Shown: positions 13,061 through 61,077 of the stretch, piece after piece
Layout of the letters: each line of letters starts with the position of its first letter
Numbering within the stretch: the stretch's first letter is position 1
Assembly: GCF_013401515.1 (NCBI RefSeq)
Contig: NZ_CP058532.1
Span: forward strand, 1-64,000
Length of the DNA stretch: 64,000 nucleotides
From: Halorarum halophilum
GTDB taxonomy: Archaea > Halobacteriota > Halobacteria > Halobacteriales > Haloferacaceae
Direction of reading: 5' to 3'
Position numbers and translations under genes: made by a program
Notes under the pieces: model-generated
What the model was told of the DNA's origin: nothing
Databases searched by the model: none
Seen by the model: only the letters and a program-made list of their open reading frames with translations

Positions 13061-13084
13061 GGTCGGGGCGTGGAACCGAGTACC
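13061..13084 (+). promoter_or_regulatory. UGGAA-loop leader hairpin A
   Basis: In the 5' leader of the candidate SSB gene: TCGG (13063-13066) pairs with CCGA (13076-13079), loop ends in TGGAA; outer GG/CC pair. Shares the GCGTGGAACCG core with leaders at 18484, 21057, 43517 and 61055. Confidence 0.5.
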
Positions 13085-13123
13085 TGGGGTCCGTCTCTCG
13101 GAAGAGAGAAGTGAAACGAAACA

Positions 13124-14053
13124 ATGGCAAGCGCAAACAAGGAAGAGGAGCTTCTGAGCTTCCTCACCGACACGATCGGAATGGACGAGGACGAAGTAGA
13201 GGCCGAGGCGCAGGAGATGCTCGACAACGATGAGGTACTCCTGACGGTGAACGCCTACGAGAAGATCAAGGAGGAGAACGTCGCCCAGCCGCAGGAGGCG
13301 AGCGACATCGACGGTGCGTACCTCGGCCAGCACGCTCGGACGCGTGACGGAGAAGTGACCGGGTACGTCACCTGGGTGTTCTCGGAGGCCGACCACAGCG
13401 TGGTCCGCGTCAACTCCGACGACCCCATCGTCAACGGCGACCACCGCCAGTTCACGCAGGTCACCCTGACCGGCGTCGAGCGGTGGGAGAACCTCGAGTC
13501 CGGCTACGAGTGGCTCCAGGCAACCGACGACAGTGCGGCCGAGTTCGACGACGACGAGCTCGCCATCGACCTGGTGCTCGACTTCGCCCAGACGGTCGGC
13601 GAGGTCGACGAGGACGACTCCTACCTGGTGATCGCGGAGGTCGCCGAAGTCGACACCCTCGGCGAGTTCCACCAGGACACCGGGGACTACCTCGGGCGGA
13701 AGCCCGTCATCGAAGACGAGGACAACGCCAACATCCGGCTCGTGCTGGAAGAGGCGCGCTCTGGCGAGCAGGCGACCATCAAGCTCCAGGACCCGCGTGA
13801 CATCGCGGCCCTCTCGGGCATCGAGTTCGAACGGCTGATGAAGATCGCCGCCCAGTCGGACGCCCAGGAGATGTCCCAGCAGCTGTACACGGTGCTGGAG
13901 GGCGAGACGGTCGTCGTCTTCGGCCGTGGCTCCGCCTACGTCAACGGCGAGGAAGTCACCGACGGCGACGGCAACCGCCGCCCGTGGCTCACCCTGTCGA
14001 ACTTCGACGTCGGGTTCATCACGTCCCTCGACGAACTGGAAGCCAGCGCGTGA
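13124..14053 (+). CDS. Candidate single-stranded DNA-binding protein (OB-fold-like)
   Basis: 309 residues, strongly acidic. The N-terminus has a short helical region; residues about 65-180 alternate short strands (GEVTGYVTWVF, FTQVTLTGVERW, SYLVIAEVAEVD) as in OB-folds, and a second strand-rich segment ends the protein (GETVVVFGRGSAYVNGEE, WLTLSNFDVGF). No zinc motif. It is first in an operon with RadA-like, MCM-like and exonuclease genes, the usual place of an SSB/RPA in haloviruses. Assignment is by context and secondary-structure impression, not a diagnostic motif. Confidence 0.5.
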   Translation: MASANKEEELLSFLTDTIGMDEDEVEAEAQEMLDNDEVLLTVNAYEKIKEENVAQPQEASDIDGAYLGQHARTRDGEVTGYVTWVFSEADHSVVRVNSDDPIVNGDHRQFTQVTLTGVERWENLESGYEWLQATDDSAAEFDDDELAIDLVLDFAQTVGEVDEDDSYLVIAEVAEVDTLGEFHQDTGDYLGRKPVIEDEDNANIRLVLEEARSGEQATIKLQDPRDIAALSGIEFERLMKIAAQSDAQEMSQQLYTVLEGETVVVFGRGSAYVNGEEVTDGDGNRRPWLTLSNFDVGFITSLDELEASA

Positions 14054-14076
14054 GTACCACGAGGTAATCACACGCA

Positions 14077-14253
14077 ATGGAATCGTCCAACAAGACGCGG
14101 GCGAATCACGCCTTCGTCGTCCGAGGCACGCTTCAAGCGAGCGACGACCTGATCGAGGCGATCGACGATCACCCCGACATCGAGCTCGTCTACCAGAAGC
14201 ACTCGGCGGCGAAGCTGTACATCCGCGCCGAAGACGAGGAGACGGACGAGTAG
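14077..14253 (+). CDS. Small protein, 58 residues, unknown
   Basis: ATG 14077 to TAG, three bases before the RadA-like gene. Sequence pattern NHAFVVRGTLQASDDLIEAI, then IELVYQKHSAAKLYIRAED: a beta-alpha-beta-beta pattern of a compact small domain. Acidic C-terminus. Located between candidate SSB and recombinase genes, so probably a replication/recombination accessory factor. Confidence 0.65.
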   Translation: MESSNKTRANHAFVVRGTLQASDDLIEAIDDHPDIELVYQKHSAAKLYIRAEDEETDE

Positions 14254-14256
14254 ACG

Positions 14257-15084
14257 ATGGTCCGTGGGAAACCAGTCGACGGTCAGCGTCAAGCACGCTA
14301 CGACCTGGGGTCGTTCTTCCAGTATGAGAGCGACAAGGTCCTGAAGCGCGTCGTCACCGACGACGACGTTCAAGGCGAGTTCCCTCGCCTCGAGCTCTAC
14401 GGTGACCTGAACGATGCGTTCGGCGGTGGTCTCCCGCGTGGACTCACTACGTTCTACGGCGAAGGCGGCTCAGGGAAGTCGAAGATCTGTCGCGAAATCG
14501 CAACCTCGGTTGCGGGCTCGCACGGCGACAAGGGGCCGGTCGTGTACGTCGGCGCCGAAGCGATCACGGACATCCCTCAGCACAAGAACATCATCGGTCT
14601 GAAGTACACCGAGAACAAGCCGAAGTACAACAAAGCGGTCGACGAGGTACTGGGGTTCTGTCAAGAACAGCAGCCCACGCTCCTCGTGATCGACAGTGCG
14701 ACGAAACTGTTCTCGAAGACCGACAAAGCCGTCGAGGAAGCCGACGTGCGCTCTGCGCTCAGCCAGATCGAAGAGCGAACCGAAGGCCACCTCGCGACGA
14801 TCGCCACCTCGGAAGTTCGCGGCTCCCCCGGCTGGGAATACCCGGCTGGGGGCCAAGCGGTCGCGCACGCCTGTGCCATGCTGGTACGGATGCGCCGCCA
14901 CGAAGCCACGTCCGAACGAGAAGCACGAGAGCTCGGAGAGTCCATCGGGACGATCACGTGGACGATGAGCATCGAGAAGGACAGAGAGAACCAAGCCGAC
15001 ACCGCACACCTGTTCAAGCCAGAGTACACTCGCCGTGGACTCAAACTTAGCAAGTGGGAGTCGGACACAGACGTGGACCAGTAG
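14257..15084 (+). CDS. RecA/RadA-superfamily recombinase ATPase
   Basis: 275 residues, one RecA core. Walker A GEGGSGKS (about residues 68-75) followed by KICREIATSVAG; Walker B region TLLVIDSATKLF (about 139-150); the SEVRGSPGWEYPAGGQAVAHACAM region matches the RadA/RadB motif after loop 1 (ggxxxxHxxxxxxR). It lacks the N-terminal helix-hairpin-helix domain of full RadA, so RadB-like or a phage UvsX-like recombinase is likely. Role: strand exchange or recombination-dependent replication, in the cytoplasm, with the upstream SSB-like protein. Confidence 0.82.
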   Translation: MVRGKPVDGQRQARYDLGSFFQYESDKVLKRVVTDDDVQGEFPRLELYGDLNDAFGGGLPRGLTTFYGEGGSGKSKICREIATSVAGSHGDKGPVVYVGAEAITDIPQHKNIIGLKYTENKPKYNKAVDEVLGFCQEQQPTLLVIDSATKLFSKTDKAVEEADVRSALSQIEERTEGHLATIATSEVRGSPGWEYPAGGQAVAHACAMLVRMRRHEATSEREARELGESIGTITWTMSIEKDRENQADTAHLFKPEYTRRGLKLSKWESDTDVDQ

Positions 15085-15222
15085 ATGGAGCAGGAGCACA
15101 CACTCATAGGGCACGCGCCACGCTCCCAGCCTCCAGGCTCACCGTCCACGGTTCTCGTCACCGGTGATACCCGCGGCACCGCGACTGAACCGGAATCCAA
15201 GCGAACGGAGTGTCACCGATGA
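15085..15222 (+). CDS. Small protein, 45 residues, unknown
   Basis: ATG lies directly after the RadA-like stop (TAG-ATG) and its TGA overlaps the ATG of the next gene (ATGA at 15219), so it closes the gap and couples translation. Pro/Ser/Thr rich, no hydrophobic core visible; may be a translation-coupling peptide rather than a folded protein. Confidence 0.5.
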   Translation: MEQEHTLIGHAPRSQPPGSPSTVLVTGDTRGTATEPESKRTECHR

Positions 15223-18483: not shown

Positions 18484-18504
18484 CACCTCCCGTGGAACGG
18501 GGTG
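18484..18504 (+). promoter_or_regulatory. UGGAA-loop leader hairpin E
   Basis: CACC (18484-18487) pairs with GGTG (18501-18504) and CCG with CGG around the loop TGGAA (18493-18497), 6 bases before the primase ATG. The hairpin is at the very 5' end of the predicted mRNA. Confidence 0.6.
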
Positions 18505-18510
18505 CCAGGA

Positions 18511-21056: not shown

Positions 21057-21076
21057 CCGGCCTTGGAACGGACCGG
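21057..21076 (+). promoter_or_regulatory. UGGAA-loop leader hairpin B
   Basis: CCGGCC (21057-21062) pairs with GG-A-CCGG (21070-21076, one bulged A) around loop TTGGAAC. Ends 32 bases before ATG 21109. Confidence 0.55.
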
Positions 21077-21108
21077 CTGGCATCGACGTGGGACGGAGTA
21101 ATCGGTAA

Positions 21109-43258: not shown

Positions 43259-43550
43259 GGCGGCTACTATGTGTTCGTTCGATTACAGTGACAAAGACCC
43301 GGAAGGTTAATATGTTCTTCATCCGTAGGTTAGCGTGACGCTACACGACAGGCGTCACACCTCCCCAGACACCCGGGTGGGACCCGCTACCCAGTCAGGT
43401 CGTTCCCCCACTCGGACCTTCCCACTTGCTGAGCAGTAGTCTTCAAAACTGTGAGACTGCGGTCCGGTCGGACGTGACAGATAGGTTTATGTTCTGATGG
43501 CGTCAACTTGGTATGCCGCCCCGTGGAACGGGCGTCGATTAGAGCCTGAC
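43259..43550 (+). other. Structured leader/non-coding region before dcd
   Basis: 292 bases without a gene. A promoter-like GGAAGGTTAATATG (43303-43316) is followed by a perfect stem GTGACGC (43335-43341)/GCGTCAC (43352-43358) and by AGTCT (43438-43442)/AGACT (43454-43458), then a second promoter GATAGGTTTATG (43480-43491). The first promoter could make a small RNA or a long leader. Confidence 0.45.
43517..43534 (+). promoter_or_regulatory. UGGAA-loop leader hairpin F
   Basis: CGCCCCG pairs with CGGGCG (one bulged C) around loop TGGAA (43524-43528), 16 bases before the dcd ATG and at the predicted 5' end of the mRNA. Confidence 0.6.
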
Positions 43551-49081: not shown

Positions 49082-49414
49082 TCAGAGCGTATCCGCCCGC
49101 TTGATGATCTTGTCGAGATCCCGGTCGTAGGTGTTCTTCCGCTCCCCGACGCCAATGCACCAGAGCGTATCGCCGTCTCGAACGAAGTACGAGCGTAAGT
49201 CACCGACTCGGCGGCGATACACGGTATGGGGGCCGTCAGTGGTCAGTGTCCCGAGGCTCTGGTTCAGATATCGGTTCCATGTGGTCAACTGTTCTCTGAG
49301 CTCGTCGACGTCGTCGAGAACGTCCTCTTTATCCTGGTCGGAGAATTTCGACGATGAAAGATCGGAGAACACGTACTCCGTGTGGAGGGTAACCTCAGAG
49401 ACAGTCAACGGCAT
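49082..49414 (-). CDS. RelE/ParE-like toxin
   Basis: 110 residues. The C-terminal 45 residues, VYRRRVGDLRSYFVRDGDTLWCIGVGERKNTYDRDL, have the RelE core (R-x-R-x-G-x-x-R ... I-x-V-G-x-R-K-x-x-Y). The preceding helices fit the family. RelE proteins cleave mRNA on the ribosome, but the catalytic residues were not checked. A 47-residue acidic gene 43 bases upstream is the likely antitoxin. Located beside the replication origin, as in plasmid stability modules. Confidence 0.7.
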   Translation of the reverse strand: MPLTVSEVTLHTEYVFSDLSSSKFSDQDKEDVLDDVDELREQLTTWNRYLNQSLGTLTTDGPHTVYRRRVGDLRSYFVRDGDTLWCIGVGERKNTYDRDLDKIIKRADTL

Positions 49415-49457
49415 ACAGTAGTCCGAGAAACAAAACGAGCCGACTTAAAACGTCCTG

Positions 49458-49601
49458 TTACAGGTCGAGAAGGTCGCGCATCTCGTCCGTCGAGGACGAG
49501 TCGGCGGATTCGAGATCGAGATCGTCGAGCCGGTCACTGAGACGGTCCCCGTTCCCCAGTTCGGGATCTTCGTTGAGCTCGACGTCGTGGTCTGCGGCCA
49601 T
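49458..49601 (-). CDS. Candidate antitoxin of RelE-like toxin
   Basis: 47 residues, very acidic (DDLDLESADSSSTDEMRDLL). Upstream of and in the same direction as the RelE-like gene. Lacks a visible DNA-binding domain, as in several haloarchaeal RelE partners. Function inferred from position. Confidence 0.5.
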   Translation of the reverse strand: MAADHDVELNEDPELGNGDRLSDRLDDLDLESADSSSTDEMRDLLDL

Positions 49602-49650
49602 GAGCGTGGGAACGTTACCTCACCGTAAAACTCTTTGGACCGTGAGAGAC

Positions 49651-49670
49651 ACCCCACCGTTTCAAGTGTT
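49651..49670 (+). repeat. ORB repeat 1
   Basis: ACCCCACCGTTTCAAGTGTT. Other same-direction copies: 49686-49710 (diverged), 49732-49753, 49782-49803, 49829-49850, 49900-49921. Confidence 0.85.
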
Positions 49671-49899
49671 ACAGACGGTGAAGGGACACCCCCCACTTTT
49701 CACGAGTGTTTTCAACAGACGGCTCCGGGAGACACCCCACTGTTTCAAGTGTTCTCGTAGCTCGATCAGCGGGCATTCCCCACACCCCAGTGTTTCAAGT
49801 GTTAGTCGTCAGCAGCGGATCACGAGACACACCCCACCATTTCAAGTGTTCATCGGAGTCGATCGGGCGGTGTGACGAGACCAGAACCTCGGGGGTCCC

Positions 49900-49921
49900 C
49901 CACCCCACTGTTTCAAGTGTT
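49900..49921 (+). repeat. ORB repeat 6
   Basis: Last copy before the unwinding region; contains CCCCACTGTTTCAAGTGTT. Confidence 0.85.
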
Positions 49922-50090
49922 ACACGGGGGTGGCGGTAGGCGGAACCCGCGTCCTCACGCGCTCTCCGACCAACATCCGAACACACCGCATTGAGTTTTC
50001 CCCACTGCGGGTTTGGTTTTAGAGTATGAGAGATAAAGGTTTCTACTTGGAATAGGTCTCCGTGGAGGGGGTCCCCCACGTTCGACCTGA

Positions 50091-50148
50091 AACACTTGAA
50101 ACAGTGGGGGGTGGGTGTCGGGACAGATGAAACACTTGAAGGGGGTGG
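50091..50148 (-). repeat. Two inverted ORB repeats
   Basis: AACACTTGAAACAGTGGGG (50091-50109) and a shorter AAACACTTGAAGGGGGTGG (50130-50148), opposite in direction to the first six. Confidence 0.82.
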
Positions 50149-50186
50149 TCCTCGGGTTTTATGGTCTCGGGTGTGGACGGGCCGCC

Positions 50187-51431
50187 ATGGAGCGCCTCAC
50201 GCCCGAAGACGAGATCTTCCAGAACGAAGACGCGCTCCGCGATCACTACCCCGACCGGATACTCGAGCGAGACGAGAAGTTGACCGAGTACCAGAACAAG
50301 TTCAAGGAGGTCGTTCGGAACAAGCGTCCTCGAAACGTGTTCGTGTACGGGCCGACTGGCGTCGGGAAGACGATTGGGACCAAAGCCGTTCTCCAGAACA
50401 TCCAGGACAGCATCGATGAGTTCGACTACGCTGACTCACGGTTCGAAGAGCCGAGTCTCCGGGCTGTCCACCTCGAGTGCAAGGACCTGAACACGTCCTA
50501 CCAGGTAGCCGCTCACCTCGTCAACCAGCTCCGACTGGGCACTGATCGCGACCAGATCAACACGACAGGCTACCCCGAGGGACGAATCTACCAGATGCTG
50601 TTTGACGAGCTCCAGAACGTCGAGGAGTCCCACGTGCTGATCGCGCTCGACGAGATCGACAACATCGGCGGCGACGACAACATCCTGTACAAGCTCCCCC
50701 GGTGTAACAACGACAACTCGGCGAACCACGTCGACCCCGATGACACGAAGGTCGGCGTGATCGGCGTCACGAACGACGGGACGTTCAAGGACACGCTCGA
50801 CCCACGGGCGAAGTCGACACTGTGTGACCGCGAGATCCACTTCCCGCCGTACAACGCAAACGAGCTCCAGACGATCATGCGGGACCGTGCACGGGTCGCG
50901 TTCCACGACGGCGTCCTCACCGACGACGTGATCCCACTCGCAGCCGCGCTCGCTGCACAACGGTCGGGATACGCGCGCACCGCACTCGATCTCCTGTACG
51001 AAGCGGCCGACCGAGCCCGTGACTCAGACGAGGGGATCATCGAGGCGCGTCACGTTCGTGAAGCAGAGGAGGGGATTCAGCAAGGAGCGATCGTGAAGGA
51101 GGTGAAGGGCCTCTCGTCCCAGGGAACGCTCGTGAGCTACGCGATGGTCAGGCTGGATGAAGAACACGAGCTCCCGGCGAAGTTAGACAAGGTGTACGCC
51201 TGGTACGAACGATTCGCAAAGCAGATCGACGCGGACACAGTGACGCCCAGGACGGTTCATACGACGCTGAACGACTTGATGATCAACGGCGTAGTTACCT
51301 CTCGCGAAGTGAACAAAGGCGTCAGCGGTGGGCGTCACTACGAGTACGAGCTGGGCTGTCCGAAAGAGCTCGTCATGGACGGGATGGAAGGCAACTCCCG
51401 TCTCTCGGATATCGACGATCGGCTCAGTTAG
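50187..51431 (+). CDS. Orc1/Cdc6 replication initiator
   Basis: 414 residues from ATG 50187, 27 bases after TATA GGGTTTTATGG; an upstream in-frame ATG at 50115 lies in the ORB repeats and is rejected. AAA+ motifs: Walker A GPTGVGKTIG (about 55-64), Walker B LIALDEIDNI (about 150-159), sensor 1 VIGVTNDG, sensor 2 RSGYARTALDLLYEAA. The C-terminal winged helix ends the protein (VTPRTVHTTLNDLMINGVVTSRE). Binds the ORBs upstream and opens the origin. Haloarchaeal type. Confidence 0.92.
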   Translation: MERLTPEDEIFQNEDALRDHYPDRILERDEKLTEYQNKFKEVVRNKRPRNVFVYGPTGVGKTIGTKAVLQNIQDSIDEFDYADSRFEEPSLRAVHLECKDLNTSYQVAAHLVNQLRLGTDRDQINTTGYPEGRIYQMLFDELQNVEESHVLIALDEIDNIGGDDNILYKLPRCNNDNSANHVDPDDTKVGVIGVTNDGTFKDTLDPRAKSTLCDREIHFPPYNANELQTIMRDRARVAFHDGVLTDDVIPLAAALAAQRSGYARTALDLLYEAADRARDSDEGIIEARHVREAEEGIQQGAIVKEVKGLSSQGTLVSYAMVRLDEEHELPAKLDKVYAWYERFAKQIDADTVTPRTVHTTLNDLMINGVVTSREVNKGVSGGRHYEYELGCPKELVMDGMEGNSRLSDIDDRLS

Positions 51432-51595
51432 ACGAGGGGAAGCGGTTCTTGGACGGGAGAGGATTCGAGTGGGTAGAGTCGGAGAAGATCCCCACAGCCA
51501 GGACACGTCAGTCGGAGACCAGTCGTTCCGTCGTCCGTGTCGGTCCATTCGGCTTCGTATCGTTCGAACTCGGCGTCGCAGGTGTTGCAGTTCAT
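51428..51595 (-). CDS. Small zinc-ribbon protein
   Basis: 55 residues, convergent with orc1 (4-base overlap) and starting inside the stop of the CopG-like gene. C-x2-C pairs CNTC and CPGC. Common as a tail gene of haloarchaeal par loci. Confidence 0.65.
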   Translation of the reverse strand: MNCNTCDAEFERYEAEWTDTDDGTTGLRLTCPGCGDLLRLYPLESSPVQEPLPLV

Positions 51596-51921
51596 GATTC
51601 GTATTCCTCCATGATGTACTCGTCCAGGTCAGGGTGGTCGAGACCGGCGCGTACCAGACCCTCGAGGAAGTGCTTGTGCTTTTCCACTTCGTCGTCACCA
51701 TCGAGCGTCCGCTTGGCGTTGTACCGTTTGAACGTCCGATCGAGGTCGCCCTGAAGTTGCTCACTCAGATACATCGGACATTGGCTCCGAGATCGAGTCG
51801 ACTCCTCTGAAGTGCCACCACCAGCGTCCGTACCGGTTTCACGCTCCGCCCCGTCGTCCTCTTCACGCCGATGGCGCTGCTTCATCATGCTGGCGAGCTC
51901 GTCGTCGTCTTCTTCAGGCAT
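51592..51921 (-). CDS. CopG-like partner of ParA
   Basis: 109 residues from ATG 51921. Acidic, low-complexity N-terminus; the C-terminal half, CPMYLSEQLQGDLDRTFKRYNAKR then EKHKHFLEGLVRAGLDHPDL, matches small proteins encoded after parA in haloarchaeal plasmids. Predicted ribbon-helix-helix centromere binder or ParA regulator. Overlaps parA by 8 bases. Confidence 0.7.
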   Translation of the reverse strand: MPEEDDDELASMMKQRHRREEDDGAERETGTDAGGGTSEESTRSRSQCPMYLSEQLQGDLDRTFKRYNAKRTLDGDDEVEKHKHFLEGLVRAGLDHPDLDEYIMEEYES

Positions 51922-52708
51922 GGTTCGTCTCCAGGTGGTCAGCGAGGCTCGCGTAGATCTCGCGAACTTCCGTCGCCTTCTTCTCGCGGTGATTATTGTC
52001 CGGGTCGTAGCCGAAGATCGACCGCTGCTGGTCGAACGCGCCTTCGATCGCGACAGTGTCCGGGACCTGGAAGACACGGTCTTCGCCCATGTTCTCGTTG
52101 AACCAGGCGATTCGCTCCTCGCTGATGCTGTTGCGAGAGGTTGCGTTGACGACGACCCCCGCGTAGTCGATCGGCCGACGGTACTCGTCGATGAGTCCAT
52201 CGACCTCTCGGCGCATCAGGTTCATCGAGAACGTCGCGATCGAGTCGGGACGAGTGACGAACAGGAGGTTCCCAGCGGCCAGCAGTGCGCCATCACAGAG
52301 TGGCCCGAGATTCGGCGGCGCGTCGATGAGCACGTAGTCGTAATCGTGCTCGATCTCATCGAGTGCGAGGCGGAGGCGTTCGTTACGCCGGTTCATCGTG
52401 TGCATGTCGTCCTCGAGCTCGAAGAACGACCCATGGGCCGGGAGGAGATCGTATTCCTCGTGCTCGACGATCACGTCGTTGATCTCGTCGAAGCGGTTGA
52501 CGTCACGCAGGATCTGTCCCATCGTATCTTCGCGCGAGCTCACGTAGTAATCGCGAAAGCCGAGTGTGATCGTCGGGAACCCTTGCGGGTCACTGTCGAC
52601 GAGCAGGACGTCGTTGGTGGCATCTGCGAGTGCGCCGGCGAGGTTGATCGTCGTCGTGGACTTCCCAACGCCCCCCTTCGCGTTCGCGAGTGCAAGTCTG
52701 AACGTCAC
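51914..52708 (-). CDS. ParA partition ATPase
   Basis: 264 residues with a GTG start at 52708. Deviant Walker A KGGVGKSTTT (about 10-19) with the signature lysine, DSDPQG (Walker A'), and Walker B VLIDAPPN. Typical of plasmid ParA/Soj. A perfect 8-bp inverted repeat (52716-52732) sits between promoter and start, a likely operator or parS. With the origin it implies maintenance as an episome. Confidence 0.9.
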   Translation of the reverse strand: MTFRLALANAKGGVGKSTTTINLAGALADATNDVLLVDSDPQGFPTITLGFRDYYVSSREDTMGQILRDVNRFDEINDVIVEHEEYDLLPAHGSFFELEDDMHTMNRRNERLRLALDEIEHDYDYVLIDAPPNLGPLCDGALLAAGNLLFVTRPDSIATFSMNLMRREVDGLIDEYRRPIDYAGVVVNATSRNSISEERIAWFNENMGEDRVFQVPDTVAIEGAFDQQRSIFGYDPDNNHREKKATEVREIYASLADHLETNHA

Positions 52709-52715
52709 TCATATC

Positions 52716-52732
52716 ACCCGTGTCACACGGGT
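52716..52732. promoter_or_regulatory. Inverted repeat ACCCGTGT-C-ACACGGGT
   Basis: Perfect 8-bp arms with one central base, 8 bases upstream of the parA start on its coding side. Confidence 0.65.
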
Positions 52733-52795
52733 CATCCGTGGGATATTAAACCTACGTCAGACACGCAGTCCACGGACCAGACAGGTCAGACCCCC

Positions 52796-52832
52796 TGTAC
52801 GTACGTACGTACGCGCACATATGTACGTACAG
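52796..52832. repeat. TACG-rich tract, copy 5
   Basis: Runs of TACG around cgcacatatg, 30 bp upstream of the tRNA cluster 2 promoter. Confidence 0.6.
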
Positions 52833-52882
52833 CTCCCGTCGTGCGATTGGGTGTCAGTCGCACGATAGCTTTAAGGTGAATG

Positions 52883-52904
52883 GACGTATTTATTCTGATA
52901 CGTC
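52883..52904. repeat. Inverted repeat GACGTAT-8-ATACGTC
   Basis: Perfect 7-bp arms, 8-base AT-rich spacer, just downstream of a promoter; operator-like. Confidence 0.55.
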
Positions 52905-52905
52905 A

Positions 52906-52995
52906 ATGTCACTGACTGCGGATACACCCGGCAATCCGCCCCTGGCGCGATGCTGGCACTACGGAGTGCCAGAACGCGTCAAAGCTCAACAGTGA
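52906..52995 (+). CDS. Possible 29-residue ORF
   Basis: ATG about 35 bases behind CTTTAAGG, stop 14 bases before tRNA-Asn. No recognisable features. Confidence 0.3.
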   Translation: MSLTADTPGNPPLARCWHYGVPERVKAQQ

Positions 52996-53009
52996 CAGCA
53001 CTCTTTCGT

Positions 53010-53083
53010 GCCGGGAAGTCCCCCTTGGTGGGGGTATCAGACTGTTAATCTGACCGTGGAAGGTTCGAATCCTTCTCCCGGCG
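53010..53083 (+). tRNA. tRNA-Asn(GTT)
   Basis: Acceptor GCCGGGA/TCCCGGC, anticodon stem TCAGA/TCTGA, loop CTGTTAA, T stem GAAGG/CCTTC. Confidence 0.9.
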
Positions 53084-53164
53084 CTCCAGAGTGGGCGCAT
53101 GTCAGAATACCAGAAACTATAATACCGTATCAGGTAAAGGATAAGACACAACAACATGGCAACA

Positions 53165-53238
53165 GGACTCGTGGTCCAGTCTGGCTACGACGGTCGCCTC
53201 CAAAGCGACATACGGGGGTTCGAATCCTTCCGAGTCCA
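53165..53238 (+). tRNA. tRNA-Trp(CCA)
   Basis: Acceptor GGACTCG/CGAGTCC, anticodon stem GTCGC/GCGAC, loop CTCCAAA. A separate promoter-like CCAGAAACTATAATACC lies at 53110. Confidence 0.9.
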
Positions 53239-53325
53239 CTTGGGCCGCCCGCGGGAGTGGGATAGGTCCAACGCACACCTGGGGAGGTGCTGACGCCCAC
53301 CCCTTCCCCGGTGGGAGTTGTGAGA

Positions 53326-53398
53326 TGCCGCGCGGTCCGCTGGGACGGACGCCGCCCTGACATGGCGGAGACGGGAGGTTCGACTCCTCCTGTGGCAA
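53326..53398 (+). tRNA. tRNA-Val(GAC)
   Basis: Acceptor TGCCGCG/TGTGGCA with G-T pairs, D stem GTCC/GGAC, anticodon stem CCGCC/GGCGG, loop CTGACAT. Confidence 0.87.
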
Positions 53399-53482
53399 TG
53401 AGGGATTCGTTCCCTCAGGTGAACCCGGTCGAGGTGCGATCTCGACCATCTACCCTCACGGCTCCGTTTGGCCACGGAGCCA
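53398..53482 (+). other. Three tandem hairpins between Val tRNAs
   Basis: TGAGGGA/TCCCTCA, GGTCGAG/CTCGACC and GGCTCCGT/ACGGAGCC stems follow one another with 5-7 base loops. All perfect. Confidence 0.65.
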
Positions 53483-53484
53483 TC

Positions 53485-53558
53485 TGGCGCGTAGGTCAGT
53501 CTGGTAGACCGCCTCGCTTACATCGAGGATGGCCGCGGTTCGAATCCGCGCGCGCCAA
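53485..53558 (+). tRNA. tRNA-Val(TAC)
   Basis: Acceptor TGGCGCG/CGCGCCA, anticodon stem CCTCG/CGAGG, loop CTTACAT. Confidence 0.9.
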
Positions 53559-53676
53559 CTCGGGCGCGAGCTCACCCCCGGTCCCGTGAGCTCACGACCA
53601 GTTAGGAAACGGTCGGGGAAGCGCCCGACAGAGAAATGGGACCCCGGTCCCCCTTCGGGGGATCGTTAGCAAGCAA

Positions 53677-53751
53677 GTGCCCGTAGTTCCAATCTGGTAG
53701 AACGGCTCCTTTGCAAGGAGAAGGCTCGGAGTTCGAATCTCCGCGGGTACA
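53677..53751 (+). tRNA. tRNA-Ala(TGC)
   Basis: Acceptor GTGCCCG/CGGGTAC, anticodon loop TTTGCAA, T stem CGGAG/CTCCG. Confidence 0.88.
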
Positions 53752-53839
53752 TCGGTCACGGTAAGGAAGCATACCCGGTCCGCCGGTGACGTCCTCTATC
53801 GGAAGTGCCCAGCGAGGGAAGCACGCAAGACACCCACGA

Positions 53840-53914
53840 GGGCCGGAGCCCAGTCTCGGACGACGGACAGAGCTCTTAACTCTGCAAGAGTGAGTTCAAA
53901 TCTCACCCGGCCCT
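53840..53914 (+). tRNA. tRNA-Lys(CTT)
   Basis: Acceptor GGGCCGG/CCGGCCC, anticodon stem CAGAG/CTCTG, loop CTCTTAA. Discriminator T. Confidence 0.88.
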
Positions 53915-54065
53915 CTCAGGGACATCCCGTTTAGACGCGGAGTCGACGGCTTGATCAGCCAATGTCGGCGAAGGCTCCAGGCGGACGACTGGAGTGAGAA
54001 TAGTCCCGGGCGGATATGCAGCATACCGCCTCATATGGCCCGTATCGTCCAGGGCAAGCTGCTAT

Positions 54066-54143
54066 GGGCCGAAGTTCGCGATTAGGATGCGAGACTGGAC
54101 TTTTAATCCAGACACATCGCGGGTTCGAATCCCGCTCGGCCCT
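54066..54143 (+). tRNA. tRNA-Lys(TTT)
   Basis: Acceptor GGGCCGA/TCGGCCC, anticodon stem CTGGA/TCCAG, loop CTTTTAA. Discriminator T. Confidence 0.88.
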
Positions 54144-54271
54144 CTGTGCCGTATCCGACGGCCAGACAAAGACGGGTCGCTACCGTCATCGGTGTCAGGA
54201 CTTCACCTGACGTTGTACCGTGTAGATACCATCACTGACATCGCACGAGGGGCTGAAAGATGCCTCCGTGT

Positions 54272-54345
54272 GGCTTTGTAGCTCAACTCGGGAGAGCGCG
54301 ATCCTCGTAAGATCGAGTGTGGGGGTTCGAGTCCCTCCGAAGCCT
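54272..54345 (+). tRNA. tRNA-Thr(CGT)
   Basis: Acceptor GGCTTTG/CGAAGCC, anticodon stem CGATC/GATCG, loop CTCGTAA. Confidence 0.88.
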
Positions 54346-54500
54346 TCCGCGGCCTGCGTCCTGAGCCGCACTGACTCGGTAGTGCCGAGCCACAAACCAG
54401 TATTGGGACGCGAACAGTCAACAGAACCCGTCGACGGTTTCGAGCGCCCCCGCGACATACCCTGACGAGGGGAGGAAGCACGCGGCGCTATACAAATCAG

Positions 54501-54573
54501 ACGAGAGTAAGTCTCAGTGGAAGAGCTGGGAGTACGAGACTCCTGAGTTCGGGTTCAAATCCCGGCTCTCGTC
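54501..54573 (+). tRNA. tRNA-like element, isotype unclear
   Basis: Acceptor ACGAGAG/CTCTCGT and T arm (loop TTCAAAT) are perfect. The best anticodon stem GGGAG/CTCCT leaves loop TACGAGA, with A rather than U at position 33; the triplet would be CGA, or ACG with a poorer stem. D stem is weak. Could be a decaying or unusual tRNA. Confidence 0.6.
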
Positions 54574-54644
54574 CTTGGGTGCTGGCGAGAAGTGACCCGT
54601 GTTCAGACTCATCGGTCGACCGGGTAGCCAGTTAACCCATTCAC

Positions 54645-54717
54645 CCGTTCAAGCTCACGTGGGAGTGAGACTCGCCTGTAGAGCGAGCCGTTCCAAGTTC
54701 GAATCCTGGTGAACGGA
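54645..54717 (+). tRNA. tRNA-Tyr(GTA)
   Basis: Acceptor CCGTTCA/TGAACGG, D stem CTCA/TGAG, anticodon stem CTCGC/GCGAG, loop CTGTAGA. T stem has one mismatch. Confidence 0.87.
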
Positions 54718-54936
54718 CTCGGGGTTCAACACCGGTAGTAGCCGGTTCCGTTGCCCCTTGGGTAGTGACCGTAGCCCTTCGCGAGGGACGTCAGCTCCGG
54801 ACTGGCGACCCGTCTGGAGCGTAAACGGTTCGAGGGTGGATGCCTCGTACAAACAACTTCCATCGTCTGACATCAGGATTCAGTTCCTGTCTGTCGACAT
54901 GCCGGGCGTCGGGCGGCCCGAGATCCACGCCCCCGA

Positions 54937-55008
54937 GCCGAGTTGGTGTAGTGGCTATCATCGTGGCTTGTCACGCCACGGACACGGGTTCGAGTCCCGT
55001 ACTCGGCG
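54937..55008 (+). tRNA. tRNA-Asp(GTC)
   Basis: Acceptor GCCGAGT/ACTCGGC, anticodon stem GTGGC/GCCAC, loop TTGTCAC. Confidence 0.9.
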
Positions 55009-55162
55009 CTTCCCGGACCAGCGAAACTGCTGGCCGGGCACGGCGGCCTGCTCGAGAGTCGTCGTGAACATCATGGGTGCGTCCAAGGCCGAGGCGTGCC
55101 ACGGCCATGGAGCCGATCGAGAACCGGACTGGGGCCCCGGATACCCAAAGGCCCTCACCTGT

Positions 55163-55238
55163 AGCGGGGTAGCATAGTCTGGCCCATTGCACCGCCCTCA
55201 TGAGGCGGACGTCGACGGTTCGAATCCGTCTCCCGCTA
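55163..55238 (+). tRNA. tRNA with CAT anticodon (Met or Ile2)
   Basis: Acceptor AGCGGGG/TCCCGCT, anticodon stem CCGCC/GGCGG, loop CTCATGA. A1-U72 is an initiator trait, but the GGG/CCC anticodon stem of initiators is absent. Confidence 0.85.
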
Positions 55239-55319
55239 TCGAGGCGGCCTGAAATCCCACGGCGCGGAGAAAGGTCATTGCCGTAATCCGCACGAATGCC
55301 GAGATGGTCGCCTCACCCT

Positions 55320-55395
55320 GCTCTCGGAGTCTCCGCTGGCGAGAGATGCGAGACTTTCAATCTCGAGGTCGAGGGTTCAATTCCCTTCGAGAGCA
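55320..55395 (+). tRNA. tRNA-Glu(TTC)
   Basis: Acceptor GCTCTCG/CGAGAGC, anticodon stem CGAGA/TCTCG, loop CTTTCAA. Confidence 0.9.
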
Positions 55396-55470
55396 TCACA
55401 CGTATGGCACGTGTCCCACCGGACACGCACGCAGTACGTGGAATGGTGTGTCCCACAGGGCACACGTATC

Positions 55471-55545
55471 GTACGGTTAGTGTAGTCTGGCTAACCACGC
55501 CTCGATGCCATCGAGGAGACACCGGTTCGAATCCGGTACCGTGCA
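55471..55545 (+). tRNA. tRNA-Gly(GCC)
   Basis: Acceptor GTACGGT/ACCGTGC, anticodon stem CCTCG/CGAGG, loop ATGCCAT. Confidence 0.88.
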
Positions 55546-55546
55546 T

Positions 55547-55639
55547 ATGGTCACCCGACCAGAACCGGATGTCTCGTACGACGAGCGCGTCCGGCGCCTA
55601 ATCGAGGAGCACCGGGAGTCGCTCGATCTCCTGGGTTAG
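55547..55639 (+). CDS. Possible small helical protein, 30 residues
   Basis: ATG two bases after tRNA-Gly, TAG at 55637. Amphipathic helix YDERVRRLIEEHRESLDLL with haloarchaeal-like composition. Confidence 0.4.
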   Translation: MVTRPEPDVSYDERVRRLIEEHRESLDLLG

Positions 55640-55676
55640 CCGGGTGCGGCTGGACGCCGCGCTCGGTCTACAACCC

Positions 55677-55982
55677 ATGACCGACTACAGACTCGACGAC
55701 GTGGTGGAAACCACGCGTATGATCGGACCGGAAGGCGAGTACGTGAAGGGCATCTGCAAGTCCTGTAGCACCCAGCGAAAAGTCACGCGCGACGAGTTCG
55801 TGATCGACGGCTGGCACCGGATCGTCGACGGCGGACGGGTCCCGCTGATCCCCCGAGACGTCGACCAGGACGTGCTCGAATACGTCGCCGTCATGCGGTC
55901 CTGGAACTGCTGCTACGAGGGAGAGGAACCGCTCGACGGACTCCCGGAGCAGCCCGACGTGAGCCAGATCGAGTTCGAGTAA
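55677..55982 (+). CDS. Unknown Cys-containing protein
   Basis: 101 residues from ATG 55677. CKSC near the N-terminus and SWNCCYEGEE near residue 80 form a possible zinc site. Strand-rich centre (RVPLIPRDVDQDVLEYVAVM). Embedded in tRNA cluster 2. No family recognised. Confidence 0.55.
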   Translation: MTDYRLDDVVETTRMIGPEGEYVKGICKSCSTQRKVTRDEFVIDGWHRIVDGGRVPLIPRDVDQDVLEYVAVMRSWNCCYEGEEPLDGLPEQPDVSQIEFE

Positions 55983-56001
55983 GGCTCACGACCACCGTTC
56001 A

Positions 56002-56072
56002 GCGTCAGTGGTCCAATGGTAAGATAGCGGCCTTCCAAGCCGTAGATCCCGGTTCGATTCCGGGCTGTCGCA
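56002..56072 (+). tRNA. tRNA-Gly(TCC)
   Basis: Acceptor GCGTCAG/CTGTCGC with one T-T, anticodon stem GCGGC/GCCGT, loop CTTCCAA, T stem CCCGG/CCGGG. Confidence 0.87.
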
Positions 56073-56199
56073 CTCGGTAGATTGGCTCTCTACCGTCACG
56101 CAAAAACGAGCAAGGGACCATCGTAGGTCTTAGCTTCGGACCACCCGCGTAATCCGGGAGAGGACGGAGACACCACTGTACAGCGGTGGTCCCGACCGA

Positions 56200-56272
56200 A
56201 GTCCCCTGGTGTAGTGGACAATCATAACGGCCTTTGGAGCCGTTGACGGCGGTTCGAATCCGCTGGGGACTA
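56200..56272 (+). tRNA. tRNA-Gln(TTG)
   Basis: Acceptor AGTCCCC/GGGGACT, anticodon stem ACGGC/GCCGT, loop CTTTGGA. Confidence 0.9.
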
Positions 56273-56326
56273 CTCGGGCATGCGATTAGTTGAAGTACCA
56301 CCGACGTGATATTTCAAGTAACGCAG

Positions 56327-56884
56327 ATGTCCACCATCTGGTCTGACGACGAGCTGGCTATGCTTCGGGAACAGTACCCGAAAGGATCGATCGACGATCT
56401 CGCCGCCGAGCTCGGTCGGACCAGGGAAGCGGTGATGAAGAAGGCGAACGCGATCGGTATCGCTCGCCACGAGGACGCTGGGATCATCGAGCGGATCGAT
56501 GTCGAGAACAGACCCTCGTTCCGCGACGACGCGTTCGCTCACTTCATCTCGGGCTTCGTCGCCGGTGAAGGGTCGTTCAACGTCTCGCTCAACGACGATG
56601 CGAGACCATCGTTCCGATTCTGCATCGGTCTCGACGCTGACGATGTTCTGATCCTCGAGGAGATCCACGAGTTCCTCGGCGTCGGGTCGGTGTGCCTCTC
56701 CACGCAGGGAGACGGCCGGAACGACCTGGCGCAGTACACCGTCCAAAGTGTCGCCGATCACGTCCTGGTGACGGTCCCGTTCTTCGACGAGTACGGGCTC
56801 CAGTCGACGTTGAAGCAGCGACAGTACGACGACTGGCGAGCGCGTCTGTTCGACCACTACGACGTCGAGCAGTACGTCGTATAG
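56327..56884 (+). CDS. LAGLIDADG homing endonuclease with N-terminal HTH
   Basis: 185 residues from ATG 56327. Residues 1-45 are a SANT/HTH-like unit (WSDDELAMLREQYPKGSIDDL, TREAVMKKANAIGI). HFISGFVAGEGSF (about 72-84) is the LAGLIDADG helix with catalytic E/D, followed by FRFCIGLDADDVLILEEIHEF and later QYTVQSVADHVLVTVPFFDEY, the usual one-motif fold that works as a dimer. Free-standing between tRNA-Gln and tRNA-Glu(CTC), its stop sharing a base with the latter. It may cut tRNA-linked sites and spread this locus. Confidence 0.85.
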   Translation: MSTIWSDDELAMLREQYPKGSIDDLAAELGRTREAVMKKANAIGIARHEDAGIIERIDVENRPSFRDDAFAHFISGFVAGEGSFNVSLNDDARPSFRFCIGLDADDVLILEEIHEFLGVGSVCLSTQGDGRNDLAQYTVQSVADHVLVTVPFFDEYGLQSTLKQRQYDDWRARLFDHYDVEQYVV

Positions 56885-56959
56885 GTTCTGGAGTCTCCGC
56901 TGGCGAGAGATGCCACGTTCTCAGCGTGGAGGTCGCGGGTTCGATTCCCGTCAGAACCA
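56884..56959 (+). tRNA. tRNA-Glu(CTC)
   Basis: Acceptor GGTTCTG/CAGAACC, anticodon stem CCACG/CGTGG, loop TTCTCAG. Its D arm is identical to that of tRNA-Glu(TTC). Confidence 0.9.
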
Positions 56960-57140
56960 CTCAGGGGCTGTCCGTGGCCCCGACCACTCGGCGACGAAAT
57001 CCCCGCCGACATCCGGGATGGACGGGTAACGCCCTGACTGAGACCACCGCGGTCGAGGAAAACACGCGACTGAGGTCGTCGGCCCCGAGAGTAAGAAACC
57101 GGCCGCCGGGTGCTCCACGGCGTGAGGATCACGGAGCAGC

Positions 57141-57216
57141 AGTCCCGCGGCGTCTGTTGGCGAGACGTGCCGCCCTCTGGAGGCGGAGATCGGGGGTTCG
57201 ATTCCCCTCGGGACAA
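57141..57216 (+). tRNA. tRNA-Gln(CTG)
   Basis: Acceptor AGTCCCG/CGGGACA (terminal A-A mismatch), D stem GTCT/AGAC, anticodon stem CCGCC/GGCGG, loop CTCTGGA. Confidence 0.85.
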
Positions 57217-57312
57217 TGCGGTTGGACCCCACCAGACGGCGGGCTGAGGGTCCCGGATGGGCATCGACGTGCACCCAGACGTTAGAGCACACAGCCGCAC
57301 CCGCCACCTCGT

Positions 57313-57386
57313 GTCCGGGATCGTCTAACTGGAGAAGATTCGACACTGTGACTGTCGAGATGCGGGTTCGATCCCCACTCCCGGAC
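57313..57386 (+). tRNA. tRNA-His(GTG)
   Basis: Extra G at -1 (57313) opposite C73 (57386), the His identity pair. Acceptor TCCGGGA/TCCCGGA, anticodon stem CGACA/TGTCG, loop CTGTGAC. Confidence 0.9.
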
Positions 57387-57390
57387 CTTG

Positions 57391-57480
57391 GGGACAGACC
57401 AGCGCAAGCCGGACCGACAGGGTCCCAGTCGGTGACCCCCGGCACGCGGGGTTCTGCGAGTTCAAGTCTCGCCTGTCCCA
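57391..57480 (+). tRNA. tRNA-like element with odd core
   Basis: Acceptor GGGACAG/CTGTCCC and T arm GCGAG/CTCGC (loop TTCAAGT) are perfect, but the middle is about 17 bases too long and holds two alternative stems (ACCGAC/GTCGGT and ACCCC/GGGGT) with no loop having U33. Could be a class II derivative, an intron-bearing gene or a decayed tRNA. Confidence 0.4.
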
Positions 57481-57517
57481 CTGCGACCCGCTGGGTAGGG
57501 GTACTGAGCGGGTCCGA

Positions 57518-57591
57518 GTGCTCGTAGTTCCAACTGGAAGAACGCTCCCGTGGCACGGGAGAGGCTGCGTGTTCGAATCACGCCGAGTACA
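57518..57591 (+). tRNA. tRNA-Ala(GGC)
   Basis: Acceptor GTGCTCG/CGAGTAC, anticodon stem CTCCC/GGGAG, loop GTGGCAC. Confidence 0.88.
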
Positions 57592-57694
57592 TGGGGGGTG
57601 ACGGATGGCCCTCGTCACCACATGAATAGCCGTCGACGCCTTGCGCTGGCGCTGGCGGTAAGTGGTATTCCCCACCGAGGTAGAGCTTGGCCGC

Positions 57695-57772
57695 TGGGTG
57701 GTCGCGTAGCCTGGTTTATCGCGCCCGCTTTGGGAGCGGGAAATGTCGTCGGTTCGAATCCGACCCACCCAA
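57695..57772 (+). tRNA. tRNA-Pro(TGG)
   Basis: Acceptor TGGGTGG/CCACCCA, anticodon stem CCCGC/GCGGG, loop TTTGGGA. Touches the phosphatase start. Confidence 0.89.
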
Positions 57773-57774
57773 TG

Positions 57775-58203
57775 ATGGACAGACTAACAGACAGCCTCTG
57801 GATTGGCGACATCCAAGACGCCAGAACGAGGCCACTGGCTGACCTTGGTATCGATCACGTCGTGACGGTGTGTCAGAACCGTGTCGACGACAACCTCCCG
57901 GACTCGATGGCGTACACGCACATCGACATCGACGACGGTCCCCACGACTACGAGGAGTTCAAGCGCGGTGTCGACACAGTGGTCGAGGCGATCGACAACG
58001 GCGAGACCGTCTTCGTCCACTGTCACGCCGGCATGTCGAGATCGACCTGTACGTGCACGGCCGCGATCGCCGTCCGGCGCGGGCTGAAGTGGACGGAAGC
58101 AGTCCAGTTCATGCACGACCGCTACCACCGGATGATGCCAAGCGTCGAGCTCGCTCGAAGCGGCGGTCGATACGTCCTCGACCACATGGCCGCGACGCGG
58201 TGA
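57775..58203 (+). CDS. Dual-specificity phosphatase
   Basis: 142 residues from ATG 57775 (ATG 57772 overlaps the last base of tRNA-Pro). LWIGDIQDARTRPLADLGIDHVVTVC is the DSP N-terminal pattern; HIDIDDGPHD carries the general acid Asp; the P-loop is VFVHCHAGMSRSTCT (H-C-x5-R-S, all key residues present). May dephosphorylate proteins or RNA 5' ends (some DSPs are RNA phosphatases), which would fit its place in a tRNA cluster. Confidence 0.85.
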   Translation: MDRLTDSLWIGDIQDARTRPLADLGIDHVVTVCQNRVDDNLPDSMAYTHIDIDDGPHDYEEFKRGVDTVVEAIDNGETVFVHCHAGMSRSTCTCTAAIAVRRGLKWTEAVQFMHDRYHRMMPSVELARSGGRYVLDHMAATR

Positions 58204-58331
58204 TACATGATACGTGATACACGGCTCACGCGTAGGATGCGTGTGACACGGGACGCCTGTAGCACCCAGAGTATCACGTGTGAGACGGGCAACGTGGCGC
58301 TTATCCATCACCCGCGGGTGACCCAGACATA

Positions 58332-58571
58332 ATGGCACCGCAGTCAACGGAGATCTTCGACGAGATGGTCGAGCTCCTCTATCAGCAGCGCGAGTTCACG
58401 ATCGGCGACTTCACCGTCGACCCGGGCAAGTACGAGTACGTCAAGACCACGCTCAACGAGCTCGAGGAGCTCGGCTGGGTCGACCGGCTCGATCCCGGCC
58501 ACCCCGATCCGTCGTGGGGGCCCGGTGAGAAAGCGAAGCTCCTGATGGACCTCCCCGACGAGGACTCCTGA
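58332..58571 (+). CDS. Small winged-helix-like protein
   Basis: 79 residues, leaderless about 30 bases behind GCGCTTATCC. Helix-helix-wing rhythm (IFDEMVELLYQQREFTIGDF, YVKTTLNELEELGWVDRL). Probable regulator. Confidence 0.6.
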   Translation: MAPQSTEIFDEMVELLYQQREFTIGDFTVDPGKYEYVKTTLNELEELGWVDRLDPGHPDPSWGPGEKAKLLMDLPDEDS

Positions 58572-58598
58572 TCAGGTGCCACCACCAGCGGAAGTATC

Positions 58599-58671
58599 GC
58601 TCCTGTAGTTCAGCGGCCAGAGCATCCGCCTTCTAAGCGGAGAGTCGTCGGTTCGAATCCGACCAGGAGTA
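58599..58671 (+). tRNA. tRNA-Arg(TCT)
   Basis: Acceptor GCTCCTG/CAGGAGT, anticodon stem TCCGC/GCGGA, loop CTTCTAA. Confidence 0.9.
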
Positions 58672-58674
58672 TGT

Positions 58675-58750
58675 GCCCTTGTAGCTCAGCCCGAACAGAG
58701 CATCGGCCTTCGAAGCCGAGTTGTCGGCGGTTTGAATCCGTCCAGGGGCG
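58675..58750 (+). tRNA. tRNA-Arg(TCG)
   Basis: Acceptor GCCCTTG/CAGGGGC, anticodon stem TCGGC/GCCGA, loop CTTCGAA, T loop TTTGAAT. Confidence 0.88.
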
Positions 58751-58794
58751 TGAAGTACCAGAACTGTGATATACGTGCTATACGTAGGATACGT

Positions 58795-58938
58795 ATGAAG
58801 TGTAACATGTGTGGCGGGCCCATGGTACGAAAACGCGGACGGGTCGGCATCGAGGGGACGCGGCGATACTTCTTCCGCTGCTTCATGTGCGGGAAGATCC
58901 ACGTCCCCCGGGACGAGAACGATCTCACACCACTGTAG
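58795..58938 (+). CDS. Small zinc-ribbon protein, 47 residues
   Basis: ATG 58795, 28 bases behind GTGATATACG (leaderless). CNMC and CFMC pairs around a basic hairpin (GGPMVRKRGRVGIEGTRRYFF), a nucleic-acid-binding zinc ribbon. Sits between tRNA-Arg and tRNA-Ile. Confidence 0.7.
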   Translation: MKCNMCGGPMVRKRGRVGIEGTRRYFFRCFMCGKIHVPRDENDLTPL

Positions 58939-58958
58939 ACGTTGCTCGTCCACTCTGC

Positions 58959-59030
58959 ACGCTCGTAGCTCACTGGTAGAGCACTCCGCTGATAACGGAG
59001 GGGAAGCTGGTTCAATTCCAGTCGGGCGTA
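58959..59030 (+). tRNA. tRNA-Ile(GAT)
   Basis: Acceptor ACGCTCG/CGGGCGT, anticodon stem CTCCG/CGGAG, loop CTGATAA. Confidence 0.89.
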
Positions 59031-59034
59031 CTGT

Positions 59035-59106
59035 GTCCTGGTGGCCGAGTGACTACGCACCGCGCAGCAGACGCGGAGGACCCCGGTTTGAATCCGGGCC
59101 AGGGCT
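59035..59106 (+). tRNA. tRNA-Cys(GCA) with A33
   Basis: Acceptor GTCCTGG/CCAGGGC, anticodon stem CCGCG/CGCGG, loop CAGCAGA: position 33 is A instead of U. T stem CCCGG/CCGGG. Confidence 0.82.
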
Positions 59107-60735: not shown

Positions 60736-60756
60736 ATACGGTACCTGTTAAGTTTC

Positions 60757-60770
60757 GAAAACTGGTATAT
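60757..60770 (+). promoter_or_regulatory. Class I promoter GAAAACTGGTATAT
   Basis: Exact 14-mer ending 24 bases before ATG 60795. Confidence 0.72.
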
Positions 60771-60794
60771 ACGTGCGTCACCCATTACCATACG

Positions 60795-60911
60795 ATGGCG
60801 GTGCCAAGCACTGACGGCGACGCCGGAGCCCCGTTTTCAACCACCGATACCTCTCGCGAGGCCATGACAAATCGGTGGTTCGTCCGGCTCGTCGACCCGG
60901 GTGGGTTCTGA
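60795..60911 (+). CDS. Small protein, 38 residues
   Basis: The only ORF at the correct distance behind a perfect class I promoter, so it is probably real. Sequence starts MAVPSTDGDAG and ends NRWFVRLVDPGGF. No fold recognised. Confidence 0.55.
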   Translation: MAVPSTDGDAGAPFSTTDTSREAMTNRWFVRLVDPGGF

Positions 60912-61000
60912 CGACGACTCCCTGAGCGACGACAGGTTGGGTACTGCTGACTGGTCAAGGTTCCTCCGTTTTTCAACATCAGAGAGCTGGTAGGTCTGCT

Positions 61001-61020
61001 AACCAGTAACATTTATTACA
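61001..61020 (+). promoter_or_regulatory. Promoter of PolB operon
   Basis: AACCAGTAACATTTATTACA, TATA TTTATTA; predicted start about 61040, just upstream of hairpin D. Confidence 0.5.
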
Positions 61021-61054
61021 GTATGATGACTATTTCTATACACTAACCTCTGGG

Positions 61055-61077
61055 CTACTGGCGTGGAACGGAGGTAG
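61055..61077 (+). promoter_or_regulatory. UGGAA-loop leader hairpin D
   Basis: CTAC (61055-61058) pairs with GTAG (61074-61077), CG with CG around loop TGGAA (61064-61068); internal loop TGG/GAG. Ends 14 bases before ATG 61092. Confidence 0.58.

Follow-up and report, generated by a model that had tools for sequence, protein, structure and literature searches.

A candidate virus-encoded small RNA complementary to the leaders of replication genes in a large haloarchaeal virus

Several replication genes encoded in a stretch of 64,000 nucleotides (bases 1-64000 of contig C4, here called the window) carry a common short motif in their leaders, which raises the question of what recognises it. A sequence-only reading had suggested a small hairpin with a constant UGGAA loop as a binding site for a protein. 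Contig C4 has 148,857 bp and belongs to an assembly of 4.28 Mb in four contigs. It encodes a terminase, a tape-measure-like protein, PolB, ribonucleotide reductase (RNR), an AEP-TOTE primase and dcd, and furthermore UvrD, a DNA ligase, a GHKL/HSP90-like protein, and a ParB-like protein. Among haloviruses the terminase finds a match in Halogranum tailed virus 1 (25%), and matches to the GHKL protein, at about 28%, come from haloarchaeal tailed viruses. Because of this gene content and the halovirus matches of the two proteins, C4 is a haloarchaeal tailed virus of large size, which may be maintained as a plasmid. The window contains 31 tRNA genes at 46225-59106, an almost full set, comparable to the 36 tRNAs reported for HGTV-1. 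The candidate SSB protein (13124-14053) found no match in Pfam, PHROG or PDB, and its label is unconfirmed. The host encodes an Lsm protein, an archaeal relative of Hfq.

The contigs of the relatives, G170, G171, and G172, were read over their full length. G171 and G170 appear to make up a single co-linear virus, each being half of it, and G172 represents a third virus; a further contig, G429, has the same sequence as part of G172. Searches with the primase, the RecA-like protein, PolB and the terminase yielded only viruses of metagenome 3300027007, an identical copy in 3300000932, and one very distant terminase, and a scan with the GHKL protein added no further relative. Family- and class-wide genome searches with the primase, the terminase and an RNA model returned only the genome of the window itself and very distant terminases.

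Distribution of the leader motif

All five leader motifs named in the sequence-only reading are present as TGGAAC(C/G)G, with TGGAACCG at 13071 and TGGAACGG at 18493, 21064, 43524, and 61064, but the set is larger than five. The motif GTGGAACGG is found in the leaders of the candidate SSB operon, the primase, the GHKL gene, dcd and the PolB operon, and outside the window in those of RNR, the UvrD helicase and about four more genes; the additional genes with sites comprise RNR, UvrD, a 377-aa gene, a Band_7 gene and two smaller genes. The 8-mer by itself shows a modest excess in the window, with 12 matches against 5.3 expected, which was reached by two of 100 shuffles. Of a longer and very specific form, CGTGGAACGGAGT with one mismatch allowed, C4 contains eight sense copies (13069, 18491, 21087, 61062, 72588, 108172, 116672, and 122399), all of them in leaders or upstream intergenic DNA, and a single antisense copy at 72665. 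The remaining 4.13 Mb of the assembly contain eight copies in total; the expectation for C4 is about 0.3 (0.29, presuming a base composition like that of the host). The sole antisense copy in G171 and G172 is an exact one in the orthologous intergenic element, and a single near-match, CGTGGGACGGAGT at 40133, is antisense in G170.

The motif is conserved in orthologous leaders of the relatives: those of SSB, primase, GHKL, dcd, and the 377-aa gene (start 116689) in G170/G171, those of the PolB operon, UvrD, gene 116689 and RNR in G172, and that of RNR in G171 too. Beyond these viruses, matches to the exact motif in viral contigs were mostly due to chance, contig L035 excepted, a scan of genome contigs gave five matches in unrelated bacteria, and the final pattern scan recovered both known viruses together with twelve other contigs, matched by pattern alone.

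The suggestion of a post-transcriptional replication regulon was supported, the motif being conserved, placed downstream of predicted transcript starts and attached mainly to replication and nucleotide genes. The sites follow TATA-like boxes at a distance of 36 to about 72 nt, which leaves about 9-45 nt from the predicted 5' end to the site; the site near 112330 has no clear TATA box and the promoter call for SSB is ambiguous. As the distance from TATA box to site varies, the motif was rejected as a promoter element and is taken as an RNA element.

Two further occurrences were observed. A sense copy, AGTGGAACGGAGT, lies within the promoter region of the intergenic element described below (C4 72588-72600; L001:8588-8600), is absent from G171 and G172 and is not accounted for by the sRNA reading given below. 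The sequence CTCCGTCCC(A/T)CGCG stands directly after a stop codon in both viruses (window 26330-26350; G170 40130-40145, L100:130-145); it is antisense to the GTGGGACGGAG form of the motif and may be a second pairing partner.

A complementary intergenic element and its leader sites

The antisense copy belongs to an intergenic and apparently non-coding element at C4:72,608-72,715 (L001:8608-8715), outside the window, which is found in the same neighbourhood in G171 and G172. Its core, GGACCGACACTCCGTTCCACGCC, consists of 23 nt that are identical in C4, G171 and G172 and run antisense to the motif of the leaders; no other invariant block is as long in this region, which has otherwise diverged except for the neighbouring gene and a palindrome. 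The element is laid out as two hairpins, then the core, then a 3' hairpin with a T-rich tract. Upstream on the + strand lies a conserved BRE/TATA-like sequence, GTRCGAAA..TTATATAGT in the relatives and TTTATGTAG in C4, and in all three viruses the element may have a promoter and a 3' end of its own. This promoter-like sequence and the T-rich tract are the reason for assigning the element to the + strand; folding energy gives no preference for it. The core is mostly unpaired in the folds of G171 and G172, and in C4 its accessibility varies with the assumed 5' end. Covariation within the helices is slight (two pairs with double changes), and as there are effectively two independent versions, C4 versus G171/G172, no covariation between seed and targets was seen. 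An open reading frame is not conserved, the 46-aa frame of C4 having no ATG at that place in G171/G172. It was also considered that the element might be the leader of a minus-strand gene at C4 72282-72482; this was rejected, as the weak protein match stems from a conserved palindromic DNA repeat and no minus-strand TATA box was seen.

None of the 4227 Rfam models matched the element locus up to E 1, only tRNAs being found in the scanned sequence. In virus sequences an RNA model built from the three copies retrieved these copies alone, in 391 genomes of the class it retrieved just C4, and phage and plasmid collections contained no credible homologue. In its promoter the element is closer to the target genes than to the other C4 genes with GAAAACTGGTATA promoters.

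The sites complementary to the core are the following, with duplex energies in kcal/mol; the first GHKL copy is the one of the sequence-only reading.

13066..13093, + strand: SSB operon leader site (gene 13124-14053), GGGCGTGGAACCGAGTACCTGGGGTCCG; duplex -33.3
18490..18510, + strand: primase leader site (AEP-TOTE, start 18511), CCGTGGAACGGGGTGCCAGGA, abutting the ATG; duplex -28.6
21057..21076, + strand: GHKL leader copy 1, UUGGAAC in a covarying stem-loop, only nine core bases matching
21086..21107, + strand: GHKL leader site 2, the stronger one, ACGTGGGACGGAGTAATCGGTA, with the motif at 21087-21099, ending 1 nt before the ATG at 21109; duplex -31.6
43521..43538, + strand: dcd leader site (start 43551); duplex -26.2
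61059..61079, + strand: leader site of the PolB operon (61092...PolB 62218-64866), GGCGTGGAACGGAG, 14 contiguous pairs; duplex about -31
C4 65930-65950, outside the window: UvrD site, paired to the core through its CCGACAC half; -31.4, -26.7, and -28.3 in the three viruses
C4 92145-92168, outside the window: site before a small gene at 92173
C4 108170-108185, outside the window: site upstream of the Band_7 gene
C4 ~112330, outside the window: site of a small gene, UGUGGGAUGGACG in C4 versus CGUGGGACGGAGU in the relatives, mostly G-U compatible
C4 116666-116688, outside the window: site of the 377-aa gene (116689), abutting the ATG; -25.4, -28.7, and -30.6
C4 122400-122414, outside the window: RNR site, CACTCC[TGGAAC]GGAGTG

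Pairing was also seen in orthologous leaders: the SSB leader of G170 gives -37.2 with 17 contiguous pairs, the primase site CGTGGAACGGAGTG gives -28.2, GHKL site 2 (GTGGGACGGAGTGATTCGGTCA) gives -37.4, and the dcd ortholog, overlapping the ATG, gives -27.2 to -29.7. GHKL copy 1 is kept in G170 with an altered stem, and the PolB operon site is retained in G171 and G172. Most duplexes include an SD-like GGAG. The duplex ends 0-5 nt from the AUG in primase, GHKL, 116689, 92173, and Band_7 and 9-15 nt from it in the PolB operon (C4, G172) and RNR; for dcd it ends 12 nt before the AUG in C4 and lies over the AUG in G170, and for SSB and UvrD it is found 25-40 nt before the AUG.

Two leader hairpins were noted besides these sites. 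One lies between the SSB site and the ATG (CTCTCGGAAGAGAG at C4 13095-13112; CTCCCGCAAGGGA at about 27295-27310 in G170), where the stems differ yet pair and the loops are GNRA-like. The other, CCAACC(N6)GGTTGG followed by AGTGT before an ATG, is conserved in both viruses (window 28213; G170 42007), and its leader is a possible extra weak target.

The 23-mer forms duplexes of about -20 to -37 kcal/mol with the leaders; those of SSB and GHKL in G170 reach as many as 17 contiguous pairs and add a second block. Exactly eight genes reach -24 kcal/mol or lower in both orthologs, namely SSB, the PolB operon, GHKL, UvrD, primase, dcd, 116689, and RNR. The core is a conserved, mostly unpaired stretch complementary to remote mRNAs. 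As controls, 400 GC-matched non-coding 23-mers of the same virus were used. At -28 or lower five genes were found for the element and at most three for any control, and at -30 or lower three genes against at most two; at -24, 59 of the 400 control segments equalled the observed number of genes, and mononucleotide-shuffled sRNAs with loose energy cut-offs gave no discrimination. When every 13-mer of C4 was scanned blindly for antisense matches in leaders, the one from the element came first, tied only with a low-complexity GTACGTAC palindrome.

Preferred explanation and alternatives

What is then recognised in these leaders, a hairpin or a linear sequence? The UGGAA-loop hairpin did not withstand comparison with shuffled sequence, as local folds were mostly within the shuffle range: folding z values of the leaders ran from +1.4 to -1.8, except for the PolB operon (about -3) and one relative's Band_7 leader (-2.7). 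The loop, supposed to be constant, is not conserved at the SSB, GHKL-2, 116689, UvrD, and Band_7 sites. Stems that differ but remain complementary were confirmed at dcd, RNR, GHKL site 1 and the first 116689 copy. As most sites have either no hairpin or one that does not surpass shuffled sequence, the hairpin was rejected as the shared element, and the structure with a constant loop in all targets that an operator of the T4 RegA or gp43 type would have was not found. The proposed protein regulator (SSB, PolB or PadR) was likewise not supported, the sites instead matching the reverse complement of the 23-nt stretch with 9-17 contiguous pairs and often a second block. An RNA partner would keep the linear sequence, extend the complementarity past the loop and tolerate mostly those A/C changes which preserve G-U pairs. 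At target A or C positions a G-U pair was indeed kept in 13 of 16 departures from the consensus, which has a probability of about 1e-4 under equal substitutions and about 0.01 with a strong transition bias, the sites being not fully independent.

As judged from the sequences, the leader motif is likely to be the target of a virus-encoded trans-acting sRNA which would repress translation of the replication regulon. We further lean towards the view that one self-encoded sRNA with a single recognition stretch serves about ten leaders and thereby the whole replication and nucleotide regulon of this giant archaeal virus. Conservation, complementarity, the gene set and the promoter-like sequence are established, and from them we infer transcription of the RNA, its pairing in vivo, the repressive direction and the biological purpose. 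The predicted sRNA of about 100-125 nt would be made from C4:72,608-72,715, with two 5' hairpins, an unpaired 23-nt stretch, a 3' hairpin and a T-rich tract. The partners of its recognition stretch would be GGCGUGGAACGGAGUGUCGGUCC-like sequences in the leaders of the SSB operon, primase, GHKL/HSP90-like gene, dcd, PolB operon, UvrD, RNR, and some four others. At sites folded into a small hairpin, the sRNA may first make contact with the UGGAAC loop. In most leaders the predicted duplex would cover the SD-like GGAG and/or end 0-15 nt from the AUG, and for this reason coordinate translational repression is the likeliest outcome; replication and nucleotide genes would be repressed, mRNA decay being optional. 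Direct blocking of the ribosome is less obvious at SSB and UvrD, because these sites are 25-40 nt from the AUG. The purpose might be to limit replication in a plasmid-like carrier state or to shut off early genes late in infection, and feedback on early genes would fit the likeness of the element promoter to the target promoters.

A viral or host RNA-binding protein which binds the UGGAAC motif or hairpin and represses translation, the antisense copy being incidental or regulatory DNA, is an unlikely source of the pattern. It would account for the constant UGGAAC with variable yet complementary stems at the four sites named above and for the purely sense orientation of the leader copies, but the hairpins are neither stable nor conserved at most sites, and it leaves unexplained both the 23-nt antisense block, which is invariant in three viruses and comes with a promoter and a T-rich 3' hairpin, and the extension of pairing into GUGUCGG at UvrD, GHKL-2 and SSB. 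That a viral transcription factor acts on GTGGAACGGAGT as a DNA operator past the start site, the intergenic copy being the same operator reversed, is still less probable: the sites are near promoters, including the C4 copy at 72588 near the promoter of the element, but distances to the TATA box differ by over 30 bp, the leader copies all point the same way, and A-to-G and C-to-T changes preserving RNA pairing predominate at A/C positions. We regard as very improbable an extended ribosome-binding signal (GGAACGGAG plus SD-like GGAG) with the antisense block arising by chance or as a cis element in the leader of gene 72775. GGAG does occur 5-12 nt ahead of several AUGs (116689, Band_7, 92173), but GUGGAAC, the best-kept part, is not SD-like, most virus genes with similar promoters have no motif, and the antisense block is invariant over 23 nt.

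Known systems and other repeats of the virus

In T4, RegA, gp43 and gp32 exert coordinate or autogenous translational control of replication genes as protein repressors; the candidate sRNA resembles them in the translational control of replication genes, whereas the T4 operators work without an sRNA. In Methanosarcina mazei, sRNA154 and sRNA41 are trans-acting RNAs which mask the ribosome-binding sites of their targets (PMC5867862). They too are archaeal intergenic sRNAs that pair with mRNAs and mask the initiation region, but they are cellular and act in nitrogen and related metabolism, whereas the candidate is a viral RNA with viral replication targets and one shared site. Phage lambda PreS and VP882 VpdS (reviewed in PMC12197685) are virus-encoded trans-acting sRNAs tied to replication; they are bacterial and Hfq-dependent, PreS targets host dnaN, not the set of replication genes of the phage itself, and no sequence relation to the candidate is expected. 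The Halobacterium phage phiH encodes the antisense RNA Tant (Stolt and Zillig 1993, as described in PMC4284463), likewise from a haloarchaeal virus and, as far as that description goes, directed against an early lytic transcript; according to the same account Tant is cis-encoded with one target and RNase processing, whereas the candidate would be trans-encoded with about 8-11 targets.

Precedents thus exist for trans-acting sRNAs, for phage sRNAs and, with phiH, for a single cis-antisense RNA, which is the only antisense control of an archaeal virus in the literature covered. Little is known of virus-encoded trans-acting sRNAs with many viral targets, and no report of an archaeal one was found in the literature searched, which took in few subscription papers. 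If the sRNA reading is true, this would to our knowledge be the first sRNA regulon of an archaeal virus, in which one RNA coordinates viral SSB, primase, polymerase, helicase, dNTP, and accessory genes, and it would offer a clean archaeal system for studies of sRNA targeting.

Other repeated sequences were seen in these viruses. A second strong promoter class, GAAAACTGGTATA, stands before about ten genes, which are probably late or structural (C4 5317, 11147, and 12451 in the window, and 65666, 72736, 107303, 127012, and 133230), and is unlike the AGAAACACTTAT-like promoters of many other genes. Dispersed GTACGTAC-rich palindromes occur at window positions 5264, 36745, and 52800 and at C4 72353, 79644, 84689, 100623, and 107687, the one near 72353 being conserved in G171 and G172 within a CATGTCA...TGACATG frame. 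Interspersed TGCCACCAGCAAC / GTTGCTGGTGGCA sequences are found in both orientations at many places in G170/G171 (L093-L100) and G172 (L121-L125), with up to 24-28 inverted partners in the former and 16 in the latter, and similar copies are present in C4.
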